A DNA stretch of 39,373 bases from Kiritimatiellia bacterium. Its GTDB lineage: Bacteria; Verrucomicrobiota; Kiritimatiellia; RFP12; JAAYLN01. Shown piece by piece: positions 1 to 34,046 of this stretch. The notes below the pieces were generated by a model that ran no database searches, was not told the origin of the DNA, and was given only the letters and a program-made list of their open reading frames with translations. A program made the translations under genes and the position numbers. The stretch covers positions 1 to 39,373 of the forward strand of contig JAFSZJ010000089.1 in the NCBI GenBank assembly GCA_017458965.1. Direction: 5' to 3'. Positions within the stretch are counted from its first letter, which is position 1, and each line of letters opens with the position of its first letter.

Positions 1-49
1 CGCTGGCGAGCCGCAGATAACAGATAATGGATAACAGATAAAAGATGTG
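1..49 (+). repeat. Heptad array T1 (AGATAAC type), after a cut hairpin
   Basis: Five 7-nt units in register from 15: AGATAAC, AGATAAT, GGATAAC, AGATAAA, AGATGTG. The first 14 bases (CGC-TG-GCG then AGCCGC) look like the loop and 3' arm of a hairpin whose 5' arm lies before the window. That matches the hairpin-then-array order seen after dnaN and etfA, so a plus-strand gene probably ends just outside the window. Confidence 0.7.
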
Positions 50-7008: not shown

Positions 7009-7968
7009 ATGAGACGGGCGAGATTGAAGGTCAAGGACGGGTGCTATCACATCGTGAGCCGCATCAACGGGAAGCGTTTTCTGATCGACGACAAGGAGAA
7101 GTCTGAGCTCCTTTCGGCGATCCGCGCCGCCGCCGACTTCTCGGGCGTGGAGGTATTCACCTACGCAATGATGACAAACCACTTCCATCTTCTGGTCCGC
7201 GTCCCGAAGAAGCGCGAGGTCAACGACAACGAGCTGTGCCGCCGTGTCCGCTCCCTCTACGGCGACGACAGGGCCGAGAAGGTATTCAAGAAGTGGGACA
7301 ACTGGGAGTTTTTCGGTCTGTTCGCCAAGGTCAATGACGAGAAGGCCCGCCTACGCGCCCGCATGTACGACCTCTCCCAGTTCTGCAAGACTTTCAAGGA
7401 AACATACACCCAGGGCTACAACAAGCGCACAGGCAATACCGGCACGATCTGGGAGGGCCGCTTCAAGAGCAACCTCGTCGAGCCATCAGCCCGCGCCCTG
7501 CTTGCCGTCGCGGCGTATATACACCTCAACCCCGTCCGCGCAAATATGGCCGACACGCCCGATGCCGCCAAGTGGACTGGCTTCGGCGACGCCGTCGCGG
7601 GCGATGTCGCCGCGAAACTTGGACTAATAGCGCTGATAACCCTCATCGACCAGGCCAACCAGGGTCCGGCAAAGTGGTCGCATGTCCGAGGCGTTTTCAA
7701 CCACATTCACCTTGGCCGCATGGCCGTGGATGGGAGGGAACAACCTGCAAGCACGAAAGGCGCGGGATCTGCCGCAGCAAACCAGCTCAAGCCGCTGCTG
7801 ATGCGCCGGACGTCGGACTTCCTGAATGGAGCCGCACTAGGATCGCCAGCATTTCTGCGCAGGGTTGCACTCATGCTGCCAGAACGCAGGAACCGAAAAC
7901 CACCCGGCGTGTTCGATGACCGCCCCGCACTAGGTCTTTCCTCGGCACTAGGTGTGCGCGGGGCGTAG
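7009..7968 (+). CDS. REP-associated tyrosine transposase (RAYT, Y1_Tnp)
   Basis: A 319-residue protein of the IS200/IS605-like Y1 transposase superfamily, RAYT branch: single-strand DNA endonucleases that cut and join at REP hairpins and usually sit alone as domesticated genes. The HUH metal motif is seen as TNHFHLL (His58, His60). The helix carrying the catalytic tyrosine is FCKTFKETYTQGYNKR (Tyr133 or Tyr137), followed by the family signatures TIWEGRFKS (about 146-154) and YIHLNPVRAN. The C-terminal ~100 residues are not conserved as far as I can judge. There are no flanking terminal inverted repeats. The TAG stop is part of GTAG, which opens a REP-like hairpin unit copied downstream. No clear SD precedes the ATG. 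Confidence 0.9.
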   Translation: MRRARLKVKDGCYHIVSRINGKRFLIDDKEKSELLSAIRAAADFSGVEVFTYAMMTNHFHLLVRVPKKREVNDNELCRRVRSLYGDDRAEKVFKKWDNWEFFGLFAKVNDEKARLRARMYDLSQFCKTFKETYTQGYNKRTGNTGTIWEGRFKSNLVEPSARALLAVAAYIHLNPVRANMADTPDAAKWTGFGDAVAGDVAAKLGLIALITLIDQANQGPAKWSHVRGVFNHIHLGRMAVDGREQPASTKGAGSAAANQLKPLLMRRTSDFLNGAALGSPAFLRRVALMLPERRNRKPPGVFDDRPALGLSSALGVRGA

Positions 7969-8142
7969 CGTGGCGGGCGCCGCGAGCGGCGCATTACAGA
8001 TTTCAGATTTCAAATCTCACAGGGTTGCTTTGGGCGGCGCATTACAGATTTCAAATCTCAGATCTCACAGGGTTGCTTTGGGCGTAGCGTGGCGGGCGCC
8101 GCGAGCGGCGCATTGCAGATCTCAAATCTCAAATCTCATAAG
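7961..8142 (+). repeat. REP-like hairpins with heptad tails after the transposase
   Basis: Two near-identical units 119 nt apart (7961-8001 and 8080-8120) contain GTAG, then the perfect hairpin GCGCCGC-GA-GCGGCGC (7977-7992 and 8096-8111), then CATTACAGAT or CATTGCAGAT. A third, truncated unit at 8035 keeps only the 3' half of the hairpin. Between them are 7-nt words such as TTCAGAT, TTCAAAT and ATCTCAA, and a repeated CAGGGTTGCTTTGGGCG. GTAG plus a hairpin is the known recognition layout of RAYT enzymes. Confidence 0.75.
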
Positions 8143-12268: not shown

Positions 12269-12420
12269 AGATAATAGATAACAGATAATAGATAGGAGAT
12301 AAGAGATGGAAGATGAGAGATAGTGATTAGTGGTTAGTGTTTTTTCGACCTTTGTCTTTCGACTTTTTAACCTTTGACCTTTTAATCTTTCAACCTTCAA
12401 CTTTTCAACTCTAATACACC
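12269..12420. repeat. Heptad array T4, two opposed halves, dnaN-clpP gap
   Basis: The first half has ten units in exact register: AGATAAT, AGATAAC, AGATAAT, AGATAGG, AGATAAG, AGATGGA, AGATGAG, AGATAGT, GATTAGT, GGTTAGT (12269-12338). The second half is pyrimidine-rich with units such as CGACCTT, TGTCTTT, CGACTTT, TTAACCT, TTGACCT, TTTCAAC and CTTCAAC. These are the complement of the AGTCGAA words seen before murA. The clpP ATG follows with no SD. Confidence 0.85.
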
Positions 12421-13020
12421 ATGCTAGTACCGATCGTAGTCGAACAGACGGGGCGCGGTGAGCGCTCCTACGACATCTACTCCAGGCTTCTCCAGGACCG
12501 CATCATCATCCTTGGAAGCCCGATAGACGACAATGTGGCGAGCCTGATCACGGCGCAGCTTCTTTTCCTTCAGGCGCAGGACGCCGAGAAGGACATCTCC
12601 ATGTACATCAACTCGCCAGGCGGCGTCGTCACCGCCGGCATGGCGATATACGACACGATGCAATTCATCTCGTGCGATGTCGCCACGTACTGCATCGGTC
12701 AGGCGGCGAGCATGGCCGCGGTGCTTCTCGCTGCCGGCGCGAATGGCAAGCGCTTCGCCCTTCCGAATTCCCGCATCATGATCCACCAACCTCTCGGCGG
12801 AGCCGAGGGTCAGGCGACGGACATCAGCATCCAGGCGCAGGAGATACTCCGCGTGAAGGAGAACCTCAACGGCATCATCGCCTCGCACTGCGGCAAAAGC
12901 ATCGAAGAGGTGACTCGCGACACTGATCGCGACAACTTCATGTCCGCGTCCGAGGCCAAGGCATACGGACTGATCGACGACGTGCTAGTGCGCCGTCCGA
13001 AGAGTGAGAAGAATGCATAA
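12421..13020 (+). CDS. clpP: ATP-dependent Clp protease proteolytic subunit
   Basis: ClpP forms the barrel-shaped serine protease that degrades proteins fed by ClpX. The 199-residue product has the full triad at canonical positions: Ser97 in GQAASMAA, His122 in MIHQPLGG and Asp171 in TDRDNFMS. The handle region [15 protein letters not shown] is intact. No propeptide is obvious. It is directly upstream of clpX, the usual pairing, separated by a short heptad array. There is no SD before the ATG; the 5' side is made of heptads. Confidence 0.97.
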
Positions 13021-13067
13021 TGCACGATGCACAATGCACAATGTAGAATGCTGAATGAAAATTTCTG
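13012..13067 (+). repeat. Heptad array T5 (AATGCAC type), clpP-clpX gap
   Basis: Seven units in exact register start inside the last codons of clpP: AATGCAT, AATGCAC, GATGCAC, AATGCAC, AATGTAG, AATGCTG, AATGAAA. The first unit supplies the clpP TAA stop together with the next base pair of units. The word is unrelated to AGATAAC but the period is again 7. Confidence 0.85.
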
Positions 13068-17553: not shown

Positions 17554-17695
17554 CTCAAATCTCAGATTTCAGATCTCATAATTTCTCCCGATCCCATCTT
17601 TTATCTCTCATCTCCTATCTCCCATCTCTAATCTCTAATCTCTTATCTGTTATCTGTTATCTGTTATCTGTTATCTATTATCTATTATCTGCTTT
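17552..17695 (-). repeat. Heptad array T6 filling the kinase-gmhB gap
   Basis: About twenty 7-nt units with one small break near 580-590. On the plus strand, from 17592: TCCCATC, TTTTATC, TCTCATC, TCCTATC, TCCCATC, TCTAATC twice, TCTTATC, TGTTATC four times, TATTATC twice. Nearer gmhB the units are ATCTCAA, ATCTCAG, ATTTCAG, ATCTCAT. On the coding strand this is AGATAAT/AGATAAC after the kinase gene, and it provides the kinase stop codon and the last codons (ADNR). The gmhB ATG falls inside the other end. Confidence 0.85.
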
Positions 17696-18655
17696 GCTAT
17701 GCGCCAGTATCTCCTCAGGCGTGGCGGTCGCGGTGCCGACTTTCTCGACGACGACTCCAGCGGCGTGGTTGGCAAGTTCGGCGGCCTTCTCCGGCTCGGC
17801 CCCGGCCGCCAGCGCGGCGACAAGCGCGGCGACAACAGTGTCACCGGCGCCGGAGACGTCGAAGACCGCGCGCGCGGCAGTCGGGATCTGGCGACGCGGC
17901 ACACCGCCGGTCGAAAGCATCATGCCGTCGGCGCCAAGCGTCACGACAAGGAGTCGTGTGGCGTAGCGCTCGTGGAGCACGCGGCAGACCTCGGCCGCCG
18001 GGAATGGATCGGACGGCGAAACGCCCTGGATACCGGCGAGCTGGAGCGCCTCGGCCCTGTTGGGCGTGATGAGGCCCATGTCGAAGAAATCAAGACCCTG
18101 TCGCGGCTTCGGATCGAGCGCGATAAGCTTGTCCTTGCCGCCGATTTTGCGAAGAGAACGGATGAGATCGGAGGTGACGACGCCCTTTGCGTAATCGGAG
18201 ACGATAACGGCGTCGGCGGCCGCGACGAGTTTGGGAAGTTCGTGAGCCACGAAGTCATCGCCAAGCGCATACGAGGAAGGCGGACCTTCGCGGTCGATGC
18301 GGCAAAGCTGCTGGCCGCGGCACATTACGCGCGTCTTGTGGACGGTGCCGGTTCCTTCACGGACAAGCGACGGCGCGATGGCTATACCCTTCGAGGAAAG
18401 GATTTCGCGAAGCTTTGCCCCGCCTTCATCGTCACCTATCACGCCGACGAGATCCACGGACGCGCCGAGTGCGCGTAGGTTGGAGGCGACGTTCGCGGCC
18501 CCGCCTGCCGTGAAGGTGTCGCGGTCGGCCTTGACAACCGGGACTGGCGCCTCTGGCGAGATGCGCGTCGCGTCGCCCCAGAGGTAATGGTCGAGCATCA
18601 GGTCGCCTACGACCAGGACGCGTACGCCGGATATCCGTTCGAGAAGGGTCCGCAT
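17678..18655 (-). CDS. hldA: D-glycero-D-manno-heptose-7-phosphate kinase (HldA / HldE N-domain)
   Basis: A 325-residue PfkB-family sugar kinase matching the kinase half of HldE (RfaE domain I): VLVVGDLMLDHYLWG, RISPEAPVPVV, TAGGAANVASNLRALGA, and the catalytic DVSGAGDTVVA near the C-terminus. The nucleotidyltransferase half found in E. coli HldE is missing, so the activity would be split. I start it at 18655 (MRTLLERI), 5 nt after the upstream stop; a longer frame would run through the upstream gene. The C-terminal residues ADNR and the TAA come from the heptad array, so the original end may have been replaced. Confidence 0.87.
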   Translation of the reverse strand: MRTLLERISGVRVLVVGDLMLDHYLWGDATRISPEAPVPVVKADRDTFTAGGAANVASNLRALGASVDLVGVIGDDEGGAKLREILSSKGIAIAPSLVREGTGTVHKTRVMCRGQQLCRIDREGPPSSYALGDDFVAHELPKLVAAADAVIVSDYAKGVVTSDLIRSLRKIGGKDKLIALDPKPRQGLDFFDMGLITPNRAEALQLAGIQGVSPSDPFPAAEVCRVLHERYATRLLVVTLGADGMMLSTGGVPRRQIPTAARAVFDVSGAGDTVVAALVAALAAGAEPEKAAELANHAAGVVVEKVGTATATPEEILAHSKADNR

Positions 18656-25263: not shown

Positions 25264-26307
25264 ATGGCACACGTGAACAAAAACGGCGAGGTCTGGGTCT
25301 TCGCGGAGCAGGAGGACGGATCCTTCGGCAACATCCCGTTCGAACTTCTCGGCAAGGGACGCGAGCTTGCGGACAAATTGGGCGTGAAGCTCGGCGCGGT
25401 GCTGATGGGTTCCGGCGTCGAGCCGCTCGCCGCGGAACTTGGCGCCCGCGGCGCGGACCGCGTACACCTCTTCGACCATCCTCGTCTCGCCCGCTACCAG
25501 ACGGCGTCGTATTCCCGTCTCCTCGCCGACGCCATCCTCGCCGATGAACCGCAGATATGCCTTTTCGGCGCGACGCCGACCGGGCGTGATCTCGCCCCGA
25601 CCGTGGCATCGTCGCTCCGCTGCGGCCTCACGGCGGACTGCACCGACCTCCAGATCGGCTCCTACGACGATCCGGTCGCCAAGGAGACATACGAAGGCGT
25701 CCTGCACCAGATACGCCCGGCCTTCGGCGGCAACATCATCGCAACGATCGTCAACCCGCGCGACTGGCCGCAGATGGCGACCGTCCGCGAAGGCGTCATG
25801 AAACCGCTCGCGTCCGACCCGTCCCGCAAGGCGGAGATCGTCCGGCGCGACACGTCCGCCCTTGACGCGATGGAGCTTCCGACCGAAGTTCTGGACGTCG
25901 TCCGCAAGGTCAAGACCGTCGATCTCGCCGGCGCGCGCATAATCGTGGCCGGCGGCGCCGGCGTCGGCTCCAAGGAGAACTTCGGCCTTCTGCGCGAACT
26001 CGCGGACGCGCTCGGCGGAGCGGCCGTCGGCGGAAGCCGCGCGGCGTGCGACCTCGGCTATCTGCCATCCGATTGCCAGATCGGGCAGACCGGCACGACG
26101 GTTCGCCCCGCCCTCTATGTGGCGTGCGGCATATCCGGCGCCGTCCAGCATGTCGCCGGCATGCGCGACAGCGCCAAGATCATCGCCATCAACACCGATC
26201 CGTCCGCACCGATATTCTCGGTCGCCCACTACGGTATCGTCGGCGACCTGCGCAAGGTCATCCCGATGCTTGTAGCCTCGCTGCGGGAGCCGCAGCGAGG
26301 CAGATAA
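25264..26307 (+). CDS. etfA: Electron transfer flavoprotein alpha subunit
   Basis: The 347-residue alpha subunit carries the FAD-binding C-terminal domain: IVAGGAGVGSKENF, then GQTGTTVRPALYVACGISGAVQH and IIAINTDPSAPIF, all strongly conserved. AAGGA 8 nt before the ATG supports the start. It forms an operon with etfB and probably with the downstream acyl-CoA dehydrogenase. The last residues (ASLREPQRGR) and stop are encoded by a REP-like hairpin and the first heptad, so the original C-terminus seems to have been overwritten by the element; the family usually ends near LIPAL/ELKK-type residues. Confidence 0.94.
   Translation: MAHVNKNGEVWVFAEQEDGSFGNIPFELLGKGRELADKLGVKLGAVLMGSGVEPLAAELGARGADRVHLFDHPRLARYQTASYSRLLADAILADEPQICLFGATPTGRDLAPTVASSLRCGLTADCTDLQIGSYDDPVAKETYEGVLHQIRPAFGGNIIATIVNPRDWPQMATVREGVMKPLASDPSRKAEIVRRDTSALDAMELPTEVLDVVRKVKTVDLAGARIIVAGGAGVGSKENFGLLRELADALGGAAVGGSRAACDLGYLPSDCQIGQTGTTVRPALYVACGISGAVQHVAGMRDSAKIIAINTDPSAPIFSVAHYGIVGDLRKVIPMLVASLREPQRGR
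26272..26301 (+). repeat. REP-like GTAG hairpin inside the 3' end of etfA
   Basis: GTAG (26272-26275) overlaps a perfect 12-bp stem: GCCTCGCTGCGG (26275-26286), loop GAG, CCGCAGCGAGGC (26290-26301). AGATAAC heptads start on the next base, as after dnaN. The stem sequence differs from the dnaN and transposase copies, but the order of parts is the same. Confidence 0.72.
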
Positions 26308-26434
26308 CAGATAACAGATAACAGATAACAGATGAGAGATAATAGATAACAGATAACAGATAACAGATAGGAGATGAGAGATAGGAGATAGTGGTTAGGG
26401 ATCAGGGATTAGTGGTTAGTAGATAAGAGATGGG
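26302..26434 (+). repeat. Heptad array T7a (AGATAAC type), etfA-acd gap
   Basis: Nineteen units in perfect 7-nt register with no indel: AGATAAC four times, AGATGAG, AGATAAT, AGATAAC three times, AGATAGG, AGATGAG, AGATAGG, AGATAGT, GGTTAGG, GATCAGG, GATTAGT, GGTTAGT, AGATAAG, AGATGGG. The first unit carries the etfA stop. The word drifts in the same order as in the array after dnaN. Confidence 0.92.
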
Positions 26435-26440
26435 CGGGAA

Positions 26441-26648
26441 ACGAACTAACGAATCAACGACGCAACGGATAAACGGACCAACGGATAAACGGACCAACGG
26501 ACCAACGGATAAACGGATAAACGGACCAACGGATAAACGGATAAACGGACCAACGGATAAACGGACCAACGGATAAACGGACCAACGGATAAACGGACCA
26601 ACGGATAAACGGACCAACGGATAAACGGATAAACGACGCAACGAACGA
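26441..26648 (+). repeat. Octamer array T7b of 26 exact 8-nt units
   Basis: Twenty-six 8-nt units without a single indel. Three edge units (ACGAACTA, ACGAATCA, ACGACGCA), 21 central units that are all ACGGATAA or ACGGACCA in mixed order, then ACGACGCA and ACGAACGA. The final A is the A of the acyl-CoA dehydrogenase ATG, so the array is the whole 5' UTR and no SD exists. The opposite strand is open in all frames (RLSVGPFI-type octapeptides), but I do not call a gene there. Confidence 0.93.
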
Positions 26649-28327
26649 TGAACTTCTTCACGGACAACGACGACATCTCCCTGGCCCTTTCGCTCGCGGA
26701 CATGGAGCGCCTTGCGACCCTCTCCGAGCATGGCTTCTGCTTCGCAAAGGATTTCGACTGGGCGCCGAAGGATGCGGCGGACGCCGCGGACAGCTATCGG
26801 CGGGTACTTGAGCTCGTCGGCGAGATCGCCGCGGAGCGCCTCGCCCCGACCGCGGCCGAGACCGACCGCAACGGCTCAGTCCTCGGCGACGACGGGCAGG
26901 TCCATTACGCCAAGGGCATTCGCGAGGCGATAGACCTCTTCGGCAAGGCCGGTCTCATGGGCTTCACGCTCCCGTACAAGTACGGCGGCCTCAACATGCC
27001 GGCGACGCTCTACACGGCCGCCACGGAGATAGTCAGCCGCGCCGATGCCTCGTTCATGAACATTTTCGGGCTCCAGGGGATCGCCGAGACGATAAACGCC
27101 TTCGCCTCCGACGAGCTCAAGGACGCCTACCTGCCCGACCTCGCAGCAGGGCGTACGACCGGCGCGATGGTCCTCACGGAGCCTGACGCCGGAAGCGACC
27201 TTCAGGCAGTCGCAACCCGCGCCTATATCGCGGACGACGGCGAGTGGCGCGTGAACGGCGTCAAGCGCTTCATCACCAACGGATGCGGCGACGTCCTGAT
27301 CGTGCTCGCCCGCACCGAGGAAGGCTCGACGGACGGGCGTGGTCTCTCCTGTCTCCTCGTCGAGAAGGGGCCGCGCGTCCGCGTCCGCCGCATCGAGGAC
27401 AAGCTCGGCATCCATGGAAGCCCCACCTGCGAGATAGTCTTCGACGACGCCCCGGCAAAGCTCATCGGCCTGCGCCAGCGCGGCCTCATCACCTATGTCA
27501 TGTCGCTCATGAACGCGGCCCGCCTCGGCATCGCCGCGCAGAGCCTCGGCATAGGCGAAGCCGCCCTTCGCGTCGCCACCGACTACGCGAAGGAGCGCCG
27601 CCAGTTCGGAGCGGCCATCGCCACCTTCCCGGCGATCGCCGACCTCCTTTTCACGATGTCGTCCGACCTCCAGGCCGCCAGGGCCATCACATACTACGCC
27701 GCCGTCTGCGTCGATCTCGAGCGCGGGCTCGAGGACAAGCAGCAGTCTCGCAAGTACCGCAACTTCTGCAAGCTCCTCACACCGATGGCGAAATACTACT
27801 CGTCCGAGATGTCGATGCGCGTCGCAAACGGCGCCGTCGCCGTCCTCGGCGGAAGCGGCTACATGCGCGACTACCCGGCAGAGCGCCTTCTCCGCGACAG
27901 CCGCATAACGACCATCTACGAGGGCACCTCGCAGCTCCAGATCGTCGCCGCGTCCGGCGGCGTCCTCGGCGGGACGCTCAAGGAGGCTGTCGAGGATGTG
28001 CTCGCGTCGAGGGAATGGGACGAGACGCTTGCCCCCGAAGTCGCCAAGGTCCGCGAGGTCGTCGCGCTCATCGACGAGGCCGTCGCATTCGTCAAGACGC
28101 AGGACGCCGCCTACCGCGACCTATCCGCACGCCGCCTCGTCGATATGTCCGCCATCGCGCTGGCCGGTGCGCTCCTTTGCGCCCAGGCCGCCGTATGCGA
28201 ACAGAAGAAACGCATACTCTCGCGCTGGATGCTCGAAGGCGTTGCAAAGGCAAAGGCGATGCACGCAATCGTCGTCAGCGGAGACGCGGCGCCGATTGCG
28301 CCGCAGGCGGACGCAGAAAGTAGATAA
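26648..28327 (+). CDS. Acyl-CoA dehydrogenase, long form
   Basis: A 559-residue FAD enzyme that oxidises acyl-CoA to enoyl-CoA and passes electrons to ETF; its partner genes etfBA are directly upstream. The ACAD fold is complete: an N-terminal helical domain, MVLTEPDAGSDLQAV near residue 175, GVKRFITNG, then RRQFG and the catalytic-base region IYEGTSQLQ with Glu425 in the position used by short- and medium-chain enzymes. The C-terminal ~120 residues form an extra helical domain found in long ACADs. There is no SD; the ATG abuts the octamer array. The final residue and stop (SR then TAA) come from the following heptad array. Chain-length preference cannot be read. Confidence 0.92.
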   Translation: MNFFTDNDDISLALSLADMERLATLSEHGFCFAKDFDWAPKDAADAADSYRRVLELVGEIAAERLAPTAAETDRNGSVLGDDGQVHYAKGIREAIDLFGKAGLMGFTLPYKYGGLNMPATLYTAATEIVSRADASFMNIFGLQGIAETINAFASDELKDAYLPDLAAGRTTGAMVLTEPDAGSDLQAVATRAYIADDGEWRVNGVKRFITNGCGDVLIVLARTEEGSTDGRGLSCLLVEKGPRVRVRRIEDKLGIHGSPTCEIVFDDAPAKLIGLRQRGLITYVMSLMNAARLGIAAQSLGIGEAALRVATDYAKERRQFGAAIATFPAIADLLFTMSSDLQAARAITYYAAVCVDLERGLEDKQQSRKYRNFCKLLTPMAKYYSSEMSMRVANGAVAVLGGSGYMRDYPAERLLRDSRITTIYEGTSQLQIVAASGGVLGGTLKEAVEDVLASREWDETLAPEVAKVREVVALIDEAVAFVKTQDAAYRDLSARRLVDMSAIALAGALLCAQAAVCEQKKRILSRWMLEGVAKAKAMHAIVVSGDAAPIAPQADAESR

Positions 28328-28412
28328 CAGATAATAGATAACAGATAACAGATAACAGATAATAGATAATAGATAGCAGATAATAGATGATAGATGGTGG
28401 ATGGCGGAGGAT
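28320..28412 (+). repeat. Heptad array T8 (AGATAAC type), acd-tRNA gap
   Basis: GTAG (28320-28323) runs into thirteen units from 28322: AGATAAC, AGATAAT, AGATAAC three times, AGATAAT twice, AGATAGC, AGATAAT, AGATGAT, AGATGGT, GGATGGC, GGAGGAT. The first unit holds the TAA stop of the acyl-CoA dehydrogenase. A perfect 7-bp hairpin (GCGGCGC-CGATT-GCGCCGC) lies about 20 nt earlier inside the gene. Confidence 0.88.
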
Positions 28413-28463: not shown

Positions 28464-28539
28464 GGGGCGATAGCTCAATTGGTAGAGCACATCCCTTTTA
28501 AGGATGGGGTCGCGGGTTCGATCCCCGCTCGCCCTACCA
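28464..28539 (+). tRNA. tRNA-Lys (anticodon UUU)
   Basis: A full cloverleaf of 76 nt including an encoded CCA (28537-28539). Acceptor GGGGCGA pairs with TCGCCCT (first pair G-U). The D arm is GCTC/GAGC, the anticodon stem CATCC/GGATG encloses CTTTTAA with anticodon TTT, and the T arm is CGGG-TTCGATC-CCCG-like (GCGGGTTCGATCCCCGC). It has its own promoter. Confidence 0.97.
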
Positions 28540-31427: not shown

Positions 31428-34046
31428 TCACAACGCATCCGCCGCAAGTGCCTGGCGGACGCGCGGGAGGTCGTCGGAGCGCGTCTGCGCGAGCGTGGCC
31501 GCGACGCTTGCGCCGTAAATGGCGAGAAGAGCCAGCGCGCATACGGCGATGGCGCGAATGGCGCCACGGAAAACCGATGGTCTCCGACCGACCACCGCGA
31601 GCACCGCCGCAGCGAACCAGAAAGCGATCCAGCCTATGGCGGCGATGTCGATCCTGGTCGCGAGCGATGGTCCGTAGTGCCATGCAAGAAGAGTGCGAGA
31701 CGCCGGGAGGGTGCCGGGCGCACCTTCCTCCGAAAGCGACGCCTTCATGGAGTTGGCTACGGACATGGGCGTGCCAAGGCGTCTTCCGGCGGCGACGAAC
31801 GCCTCCATTGCGGCCCCCTTACGCCCGGCCAGAAGAAGCGCCACCCCCAGGTTGTAGTCAAGCGCCCCGGATCCGTAGCCGTTCTCGCGCATCGCGAAGT
31901 AGATGCGGGCCGCGTCAAGGAACTCTTCTTCCGTGGCGGCCGTGGACATGGCCTGGGTCGCGCGCTCCCATTCGAATGTGGGCGGAGGCTGCGACGCGGC
32001 TTCGGCACACCCTGCGCCAAGCAGCGTCACGGACAGTACCACCGCCAACGCGCCAAGACGCCGCGTGGCCGCATCGATGGCCTTGCGCAGACGCATGACC
32101 GCATCGACGACCGAAGACTTATCGGCCGCGCCGGACGCGTACGAGAGCCGCTCAAGATCCGAGAACGAATCGACCAGATCACGGATCTCGCCATCCGCGA
32201 CCGAATGCTTCGTCAACGCCGAGGCTATATCGTCGGCCGACGGACTCGCCGTGCGCATCCGAAGCCGCGCCGAGAGCGCCTTCCTCGCGGCTCCGATGGC
32301 CTTCGACGCCGCCAGGGCGGGATCCGACTCCGCGAGCGCAAGCGCCCGCGACATGTCGCCGGTCGAGCGCGAGGAGCGTTCGCGCAGCGCGGACGCGGCG
32401 CGAACGGCAAGCCTCCTGAACGGACGGACTAGCGCGCATAGCAGCCAGAGAAGCGGCGCGACGATGAGCAGCGGGCGCATCCGTCTGTCCGCGATGAAGT
32501 GTGGCCGCGTGTCCGCCGGTGAGAGGATTATTCCGTCCGGCAGCAGCAGCGCCGCCGACGATTGGGCGTCGCCCTCCTCGCCCATTGACGAGGATGCGGC
32601 GATGCGGGTGGTCTCCTCGACCTGTAGCGGCATGGGGTCGGTGGCGACAGTGACGTATTCCCGCCTCTCGGTGTCGTAGTAGGCCAGTCGCACAGCCGGG
32701 AACTCAAGCGTTCCTGAGACTATGGGGCGGACGCGGTACTTGAAGCGGCGGCCATTCTCGATCGGTTCGGTCTCGACGTTCTCGTCGTAGAGGCGGAAGG
32801 CCTCGGCGGCCTCCGCTTGCAGGGCGAGGACCGGTGGCCGGAGATTCGAGAGGCTGAACTCCCCATCGACGTCGATGGATAGCGTGAGCGGATCGCCCAC
32901 TTTGCAACGCGCCGTGTCGAAAGAAGCGCGGGCGCGCATGGACTTGCCAACAGGTCCCACGAACCAATCCGGGCGTCCTTCCTCCGGCGGCGGCTCCACG
33001 CGCACCGTCGCAGCTGGTCCGATCACGAACACCTCGTCAAGCGTCGCCTCCATCCTGTCGTTGACAGCTACGATTATCTGCCCCTTTAGGGTGGCCGGTC
33101 CGAATGTGTATGTGCCTTCGGCCTTCGGCGTATACGGGATCTCCACGGAGTATTCGTACACGAACGCATCGCCCGACTTGACGCGGGTCGGCGGCAACCG
33201 GAAGTCGATGGCGCGTCCGAAGACGTCCGCGAAGGAGTTGATAGTGAACGACGGCGAACGACCGCTGAAAAAGGTGTCTCGCGGAGCGAAGCGGCCAAGG
33301 ACGGTGTTCGAGTCCGGGCGCGACAGCCCCTTGGTCTCGTCCTCGGAGAGATACGCGGCGTCGATGTGCGGTGGTCGGCCGGGGAAGAGCGGCTCCACAC
33401 CCTGTCGCGGCTCCTTGATCGATACGACCATGCGTATCTTGAACGGCTCGTCCACGAGGACGCTTTCCTTGGCGCACTCGATGCGCACCGAGATGTCGTC
33501 GCGCGCCTCCACGCCGGAGACGGACACCCTGATGCCCGGGGCGCGGACGATCCCGCCAGGCGTAGTCATCGTAACCTCGCCCGTGTCGAATACGCCGGCT
33601 TCGCTCGGTGTCGCGCGGAAGACGAACGTCCGCCCCTCGTAGGAATCGACGGTCATCTTCCCGTTGATGATGATCGTCGAGCGTCGTGTCTCGTCGCGGG
33701 ATGTCACGTACTCGATGCCGTCCGGGTTGGCGAAGGCCGGGATGTTCGATCCATCCCTTGTGCCGGATGCCGCCACCTGGATAACGACCGACTCGCCAAG
33801 ATAGATTCGTTGGCGCTCAGCCGAGACACGGAGCGAGACGGACGAGGGGGAGGCGGCGAGGAGGAGGGGAGAGGATAGCAGATAGCAGATAGTAGATAGC
33901 AGATAGCAGATAACAGATAATGGATAACAGATAACAGATAATAGATAACAGATAACAGATAATAGAGGGGGGCGCGGGGAGAGGGGGGATGGGTGGTTTC
34001 TCATCCTCTTCAACTCATCAACCAATTTCCGACCCAAACCCGCCAC
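31428..34046 (-). CDS. batD: BatD-like protein fused to a BatE-like TPR lipoprotein
   Basis: An 872-residue envelope protein resembling BatD of the Bacteroides aerotolerance operon. The periplasmic part (about 65-520) has repeated Ig-like beta domains, such as VSLRVSAERQRIYLGESVVI. A membrane helix follows near 520-540 (LLIVAPLLWLLCALV). From about residue 651 the sequence looks like a second protein: MRLRKA, a hydrophobic stretch, the lipobox LLGAGC (Cys680) and a TPR-like YNLGVALLLAGRKGAAMEAF, then two C-terminal helices. That is BatE-like, fused in frame. Residues 28-58 are LLSVICY-type heptapeptides encoded by a heptad array and form the N-terminal export/membrane segment. A GTG start at 34046 has AAGGGG upstream; an ATG 14 codons in is an alternative. 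Confidence 0.75.
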   Translation of the reverse strand: MAGLGRKLVDELKRMRNHPSPLSPRPPLLSVICYLLSVICYPLSVICYLLSTICYLLSSPLLLAASPSSVSLRVSAERQRIYLGESVVIQVAASGTRDGSNIPAFANPDGIEYVTSRDETRRSTIIINGKMTVDSYEGRTFVFRATPSEAGVFDTGEVTMTTPGGIVRAPGIRVSVSGVEARDDISVRIECAKESVLVDEPFKIRMVVSIKEPRQGVEPLFPGRPPHIDAAYLSEDETKGLSRPDSNTVLGRFAPRDTFFSGRSPSFTINSFADVFGRAIDFRLPPTRVKSGDAFVYEYSVEIPYTPKAEGTYTFGPATLKGQIIVAVNDRMEATLDEVFVIGPAATVRVEPPPEEGRPDWFVGPVGKSMRARASFDTARCKVGDPLTLSIDVDGEFSLSNLRPPVLALQAEAAEAFRLYDENVETEPIENGRRFKYRVRPIVSGTLEFPAVRLAYYDTERREYVTVATDPMPLQVEETTRIAASSSMGEEGDAQSSAALLLPDGIILSPADTRPHFIADRRMRPLLIVAPLLWLLCALVRPFRRLAVRAASALRERSSRSTGDMSRALALAESDPALAASKAIGAARKALSARLRMRTASPSADDIASALTKHSVADGEIRDLVDSFSDLERLSYASGAADKSSVVDAVMRLRKAIDAATRRLGALAVVLSVTLLGAGCAEAASQPPPTFEWERATQAMSTAATEEEFLDAARIYFAMRENGYGSGALDYNLGVALLLAGRKGAAMEAFVAAGRRLGTPMSVANSMKASLSEEGAPGTLPASRTLLAWHYGPSLATRIDIAAIGWIAFWFAAAVLAVVGRRPSVFRGAIRAIAVCALALLAIYGASVAATLAQTRSDDLPRVRQALAADAL
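33873..33963 (+). repeat. Heptad array T9 inside the batD-like coding sequence
   Basis: Thirteen units in exact register on the plus strand: GGATAGC, AGATAGC, AGATAGT, AGATAGC twice, AGATAAC, AGATAAT, GGATAAC, AGATAAC, AGATAAT, AGATAAC twice, AGATAAT. The gene is on the other strand, which reads TGTTATC and has no stop in any frame, giving repeated LLSVICY. Here the array lies before a gene and in the opposite sense to the 3'-end arrays. Confidence 0.92.

Follow-up and report, generated by a model that had tools for sequence, protein, structure and literature searches.

In the stretch of DNA analysed here (the window, 39,373 nucleotides from a Kiritimatiellia bacterium), several genes end inside tandem arrays of the heptamer AGATAAC, a unit that carries stops on one strand. 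An earlier, sequence-only reading had claimed that arrays after genes carry their stops on the coding strand of the upstream gene, and that an element bringing its own stops would be tolerated at 3' ends, which may explain where the arrays lie. The question is whether it does, which requires that a property of the repeat, namely that it carries stops, be separated from the cause of the repeat's distribution.

Sequence data and methods

The window is contig 42 of 122 in a genome of 1.75 Mb that is 63% complete. Arrays were surveyed in 786 kb (45% of the genome), comprising the window and 60 more stretches from elsewhere in its genome; the surveyed stretches were chosen partly for their array content, and the counts of array orientation and of hairpins at array starts rest on them. 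Genes were called with a home-made script based on codon usage, leading to 631 genes in the 786 kb, and all tandem arrays of period 7-9 were listed. The genes of the window were identified via a Pfam domain search, while the names galE, argJ and SpoU come from a reading of the protein sequences, not from a domain search. Two-sided sign tests were calculated by hand.

A heptamer family essentially restricted to one genome

Arrays of period 7 lying outside genes number 94 in the 786 kb, their 7-base units arranged head to tail at many intergenic sites, and 149 AGATAAC-type seeds were found genome-wide. The commonest units in these AGATA arrays are AGATAAC and AGATAAT, and the family is one of dispersed intergenic heptamer arrays, as are the TAACTGA and STRR repeats. 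With one mismatch, AGATAAC arrays occur 34+22 times in the host genome, and the 386 other genomes of the phylum gave one single match; among these 387 genomes, the arrays are essentially confined to the host. The protein sequence of etfA has its best matches in metagenome-derived genomes of Verrucomicrobia/Kiritimatiellae, at 62-68% identity.

Relatives bear other units, including CGAGGA, AACTTTAG, TCGGGG and more. CGAGGA, a 6-base unit, gives hundreds of array matches in the genome of a sister genus, G003 (for example in stretches L258, L309 and L327), all within longer repeated intergenic composites, where ACCGGCAGT repeats precede CGAGGA and TTGGTCTGGTC or AGCGCCCCGC come after it.

Genes that end inside arrays

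The relevant features of the window are the following:
15..49, + strand: AGATAAC array at the contig start
12245..12268, + strand: perfect 10-bp hairpin directly 3' of the dnaN stop codon, adjoining the array (fold z -4.3)
12269..12324, + strand: AGATAAT/AGATAAG array 3' of dnaN, which has its own stop
13012..13057, + strand: AATGCAC/AATGCAT array, with the clpP stop at the first unit junction
17593..17690, - strand: AGATAAC/AGATAAT array at and beyond the 3' end of the gene for the PfkB/heptose kinase, giving D-N-R-stop
17678..18655, - strand: PfkB family (heptose) kinase gene, stop in array unit 2 (PF00294, E 7e-41; start from our own gene caller)
25264..26307, + strand: etfA, last residues from the hairpin right arm and the AGA of array unit 1 (PF01012/PF00766; orthologue alignment)
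26275..26301, + strand: perfect 12-bp hairpin within the etfA end, adjoining the array (RNA fold z -7.1)
26302..26392, + strand: AGATAAC array 3' of etfA
26440..26635, + strand: 8/16/24-base array AACGGATA/AACGGACC, downstream of the AGATAAC array and upstream of the start of the acyl-CoA dehydrogenase gene
26648..28327, + strand: acyl-CoA dehydrogenase gene, stop in array unit 1 (PF00441 and others)
28286..28304, + strand: hairpin near the end of the acyl-CoA dehydrogenase coding sequence, not adjoining the array
28322..28405, + strand: AGATAAC array 3' of the acyl-CoA dehydrogenase gene
33873..33963, + strand: counter-example, an AGATA array without a hairpin, in antisense orientation to the minus-strand genes on either side

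Four genes do end in arrays, as the sequence-only reading had it, three of them in the first AGATAAC-type units. The kinase, on the minus strand, ends in S-K-A-D-N-R-stop, its DNR and TAA being encoded by AGATAAT units 1 and 2; the ends of etfA, R-G-R-stop, and of the acyl-CoA dehydrogenase, E-S-R-stop, both use AGA-TAA from array unit 1; and clpP ends in K-N-A-stop inside AATGCATAA / AATGCATAATGCAC. The claim that every frame meets a stop once per 21 nt also holds, a 7-base unit being coprime with 3, and over 49 arrays the longest stop-free run per frame has a median of 6 codons. Where an array overlaps the stop codon (14 cases), that stop lies in unit 1, 2 or 3 in 7, 3 and 4 cases, respectively, and array phase is thus not tied to the reading frame.

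Comparison with array-free orthologues revealed altered C-termini in two of the four proteins. The etfA product is conserved up to a final LR, followed by EPQRGR-stop; its closest orthologues run about 9 residues further with an unrelated tail, and the aligned orthologues lack the residues encoded by the right arm of the hairpin and continue otherwise. More distant orthologues stop equally early, which indicates that this tail is dispensable. The acyl-CoA dehydrogenase is about 9 residues shorter than its array-free orthologues, whose tail is unrelated. The kinase is slightly extended, by 3-5 residues relative to most orthologues, with DNR derived from the array, while clpP is collinear with its orthologues, within normal length variation. 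No AGATAAC array was found at the orthologous ends of the four compared genes; near one of these ends, in the relative L237, lies a heptamer array of another kind. Where a coding sequence is overlapped by an array (in one case by the new arm of the hairpin), its C-terminal tail, which is poorly conserved, is replaced, and the stop comes from the overlapping element.

Orientation relative to the adjacent gene

Tabulated against the upstream gene over the 786 kb, the orientation of AGATA arrays is non-random. Arrays overlapping a stop are sense in 14 cases and antisense in none; the 14 include two copies of one duplicated locus, leaving 13 distinct (p ~2e-4 for 13:0). Those starting 0-50 nt past the stop are sense in 12 cases and antisense in one (p ~0.003). 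Another array definition yields 16:0 for overlapping arrays and 10:1 near the stop, and with that definition no bias is seen at 51-150 nt beyond the stop (4:4). AGATA is read on the same strand as the adjacent gene; the + array at 33873-33963, between two minus-strand genes, is an exception.

Arrays of the genome with other units of 7, 8 or 9 bases do not follow this orientation rule. Of those in which just one strand has stops, in every frame, 5 are sense and 9 antisense at 0-50 nt past stops; the proposed match of stop-bearing and coding strands holds for AGATA units and fails for the others. Stop-free strands, for instance CAACCCTT, adjoin stop codons at 0-6 nt, and near gene starts the stop-free strand of the other arrays is usually the coding strand (15:4). 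Arrays of the 8-base CAACCTTT (for example L153:5785-5857, L170:17520-17576 and L158:632-655) can fill the entire gap between same-strand genes, lying 0-6 nt from the flanking stop and start. Selection on the stop triplet of the AGATA unit was rejected: TAA, TAG or TGA is kept in 268 of 313 units of sense 3'-end arrays and in 96 of 111 units of antisense arrays, i.e. 86% in each orientation (p = 0.88).

Hairpins at array starts

Of 45 distinct AGATA arrays, 17 start at most one base from where a GC-rich hairpin with a stem of 6 bp or more ends, compared with 23 of 578 random positions near stops (4%; p = 5e-11). Stems of at least 10 bp stand at the array start in 9 of the 45 and at 7 of the 578 control positions, and only 3 of the 45 arrays have a hairpin at their 3' end. 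The abutting hairpins are gene-specific, with stems that are unrelated between loci and mostly perfect, loops of mostly 3-4 bases and, as judged by eye, outermost pairs that are usually GC..GC. The left arm often consists of the gene's own last codons, as in etfA, a galE-like gene (L116) and an argJ-like gene (L114), the latter with its natural TGA within the left arm; in a SpoU-type methyltransferase gene (L125), the left arm lies in the coding sequence and the TGA in the right arm. Predicted RNA folds display a strong hairpin followed by a fully open, A-rich array. More than half of the AGATA arrays, including most of those that overlap a stop, have no abutting hairpin.

Of 26 gene ends with hairpins in G003, 5 lead into tandem arrays of other units, versus 10 of 298 control ends, at a modest threshold; the hairpin-plus-array architecture may therefore be family-wide, although the enrichment in G003 is weak. 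A distinct, conserved hairpin element of 24 bases, GTCGTCCGCGCCCTGTCGCGGACA, lies directly 3' of an AGATA array in all eight sampled copies (loci L113, L115, L117, L119, L122, L128 and L158); it has about 10 copies genome-wide and none in 29 relatives. Intrinsic terminators were considered and rejected for the abutting hairpins, which lead into AGATA; 5 of 33 gene-end hairpins are T-tailed, and a scan for T-tailed terminators found them no commoner than in shuffled sequences. An Rfam search of the window returned a tRNA gene as its sole match and no known structured RNA family at the arrays. This tRNA gene (28464-28536, + strand; anticodon region CTTTTAAG, probably Lys) lies about 60 nt past the dehydrogenase array.

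Relation to known repeats

The STRR heptanucleotides of cyanobacteria form dispersed intergenic tandem arrays, as AGATAAC does; we know of no 3'-end polarity or hairpin abutment among them. Closer in sequence are the TAACTGA arrays of Beggiatoaceae, cyanobacteria and Bacteroidetes, which, according to MacGregor (2015; PMC4679880), likewise are intergenic heptamers with stops in all three frames of one strand. AGATAAC is a rotation of TAACAGA, which a table of that paper lists as a single-base variant, and is one base from TAACTGA. In that paper, 14 of 169 TAACTGA sets overlap upstream ORF ends, and tolerance of such insertions at protein ends is argued; tolerance of stop-bearing heptamers at gene ends is thus already published for a near-identical heptamer. 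Most TAACTGA sets are described there as closely preceding start codons, with 2-6 copies each, whereas the AGATAAC arrays are at 3' ends, longer, more degenerate and often adjoin a gene-end hairpin. AGATA arrays share with the TAACTGA family neither its unit nor its site upstream of starts, and the searched sections of PMC4679880 contain nothing on a stop-independent 3'-end polarity or on hairpin abutment.

REP/BIME elements with their RAYT transposases are likewise described as short GC hairpins near gene 3' ends (PMC3733652, PMC2817692). An origin of this kind was rejected, as of the tags GTAG and CGTC that adjoin such palindromes, GTAG, the one counted, is not enriched (within 60 nt of 12 of 46 arrays versus a 23% background) and two genomes of the same family have no Y1_Tnp match. 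REP palindromes constitute one sequence family, whereas the hairpins here are unrelated between loci, and G003 has hairpin-plus-array gene ends with no Y1_Tnp match, unlike REP/RAYT systems. The window does encode a RAYT-like Y1 transposase (7009-7968, + strand; PF01797, E 2e-10; NF047646 below cut-off), and directly 3' of it (~7961-8140) a GC hairpin with AGATTTC/ATCTCAA heptamers is repeated in tandem about three times. A reverse transcriptase source was likewise rejected, RVT_1 being absent from the genome at its 63% completeness. Finally, the tandem repeats of Borgs (PMC9879509) resemble the present ones as A-rich intergenic arrays, some of which begin within gene ends; Borg units are perfect and locus-specific, whereas here one degenerate unit family recurs genome-wide.

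What sets the orientation

The idea that stop supply and tolerance explain the distribution stands in so far as genes end in arrays and no antisense array overlaps a stop, but not as a cause of polarity. If arrays inserted anywhere and in either orientation, and only those with coding-strand stops survived at 3' ends, one would expect the absence of antisense AGATA arrays over a stop and C-termini altered as in etfA and the dehydrogenase. The CGAGGA arrays of the sister genus, stop-free on both strands, also fit: they are unpolarised (upstream gene on the same strand in 23 cases, on the opposite strand in 20) and mostly hundreds of bases from gene ends, although this contrast concerns a different repeat family. 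The same tolerance was moreover proposed earlier for TAACTGA (PMC4679880). However, the polarity persists where the gene retains its own stop (12:1), hence stop supply did not create it. As a cause of the polarity, stop supply is further left unsupported because other arrays with stops on one strand are unbiased (5:9), with stop-free strands adjoining stops at 0-6 nt, because sense arrays conserve the stop triplet no better than antisense ones, and because the frequent start of arrays exactly at a hairpin base is neither predicted nor explained by stops. We consider survival through stops improbable as the full account; a filter against stop-free strands where an array overlaps the end of a coding sequence is plausible.

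Orientation could instead be selected at the RNA level, in a candidate functional 3'-end module whose hairpin would protect or end the transcript and whose A-rich array would act as a selected spacer or binding site. The predicted folds are consistent with such a module, as are the T-tailed terminators at shuffle level, which leave room for another signal at gene ends, and the preference of the other arrays near starts for a stop-free coding strand (15:4). Against it, no conserved gene set was seen, AGATAAC arrays are limited to one genome and arrays without hairpins are polar too; we regard the module as unlikely, if less so than survival through stops. The least probable of the accounts, in our estimation, is that slippage and recombination spread heptamers, which replace all unconstrained DNA up to the stop region or gene-end hairpin, the polarity being due to a founder or to a strand effect. 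Intergenic gaps are indeed occupied by several unrelated arrays of 7-, 8- and 9-base units, and units differ in relatives, but the 26 sense arrays at gene ends of both strands, versus 1 antisense, and left arms inside coding sequence are left unexplained.

Our preferred explanation, which we hold tentatively and at somewhat less than an even chance, is that AGATAAC arrays are a species-specific intergenic heptamer family acquired directionally at gene 3' ends. Array and hairpin arm would arise in one directional event, for example by fold-back synthesis at the gene end and then a switch to an array template at another site, or by insertion targeted to 3' hairpins; the abutting hairpins do consist largely of the gene's last bases and their inverted copy. 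Directional acquisition is favoured by hairpins such as those of etfA and the SpoU gene, in which the left arm belongs to the coding sequence and the right arm seems to be new. It draws also on the polarity with and without stop overlap, on its absence from other stop-bearing units, on the equal retention of stop triplets, on the hairpins at array starts, on the position of GTCGTCCGCGCCCTGTCGCGGACA and on the gene ends of G003; the many arrays without an abutting hairpin speak against it. Hairpin and array could also be two independent features, the arrays simply occupying neutral DNA as far as the last base with a function. Under directional acquisition the stops may, with similar reservation, be incidental to the unit and explain only why arrays that overlap a stop survive in one orientation. 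That the process is family-wide, adding a perfect inverted copy of the gene's last bases together with an array of species-specific heptamers and rewriting C-termini and stops, seems to us rather doubtful.

Directional addition, if true, would be a novel DNA-writing process at gene 3' ends that sets the C-termini and stop codons of core genes. On a plainer reading, such genomes have gene ends, as well as contig breaks, that are shaped by repeats. Contigs C2, C32, C43, C71, C75, C96 and C119 have AGATAAC arrays at or close to their ends, and the assembly was probably interrupted by these repeats. At L124:6146-6278 and L124:7771-7903, an array and its flanks occur in identical, inverted copies about 1.6 kb apart, which represent either an inverted duplication or an assembly artefact.
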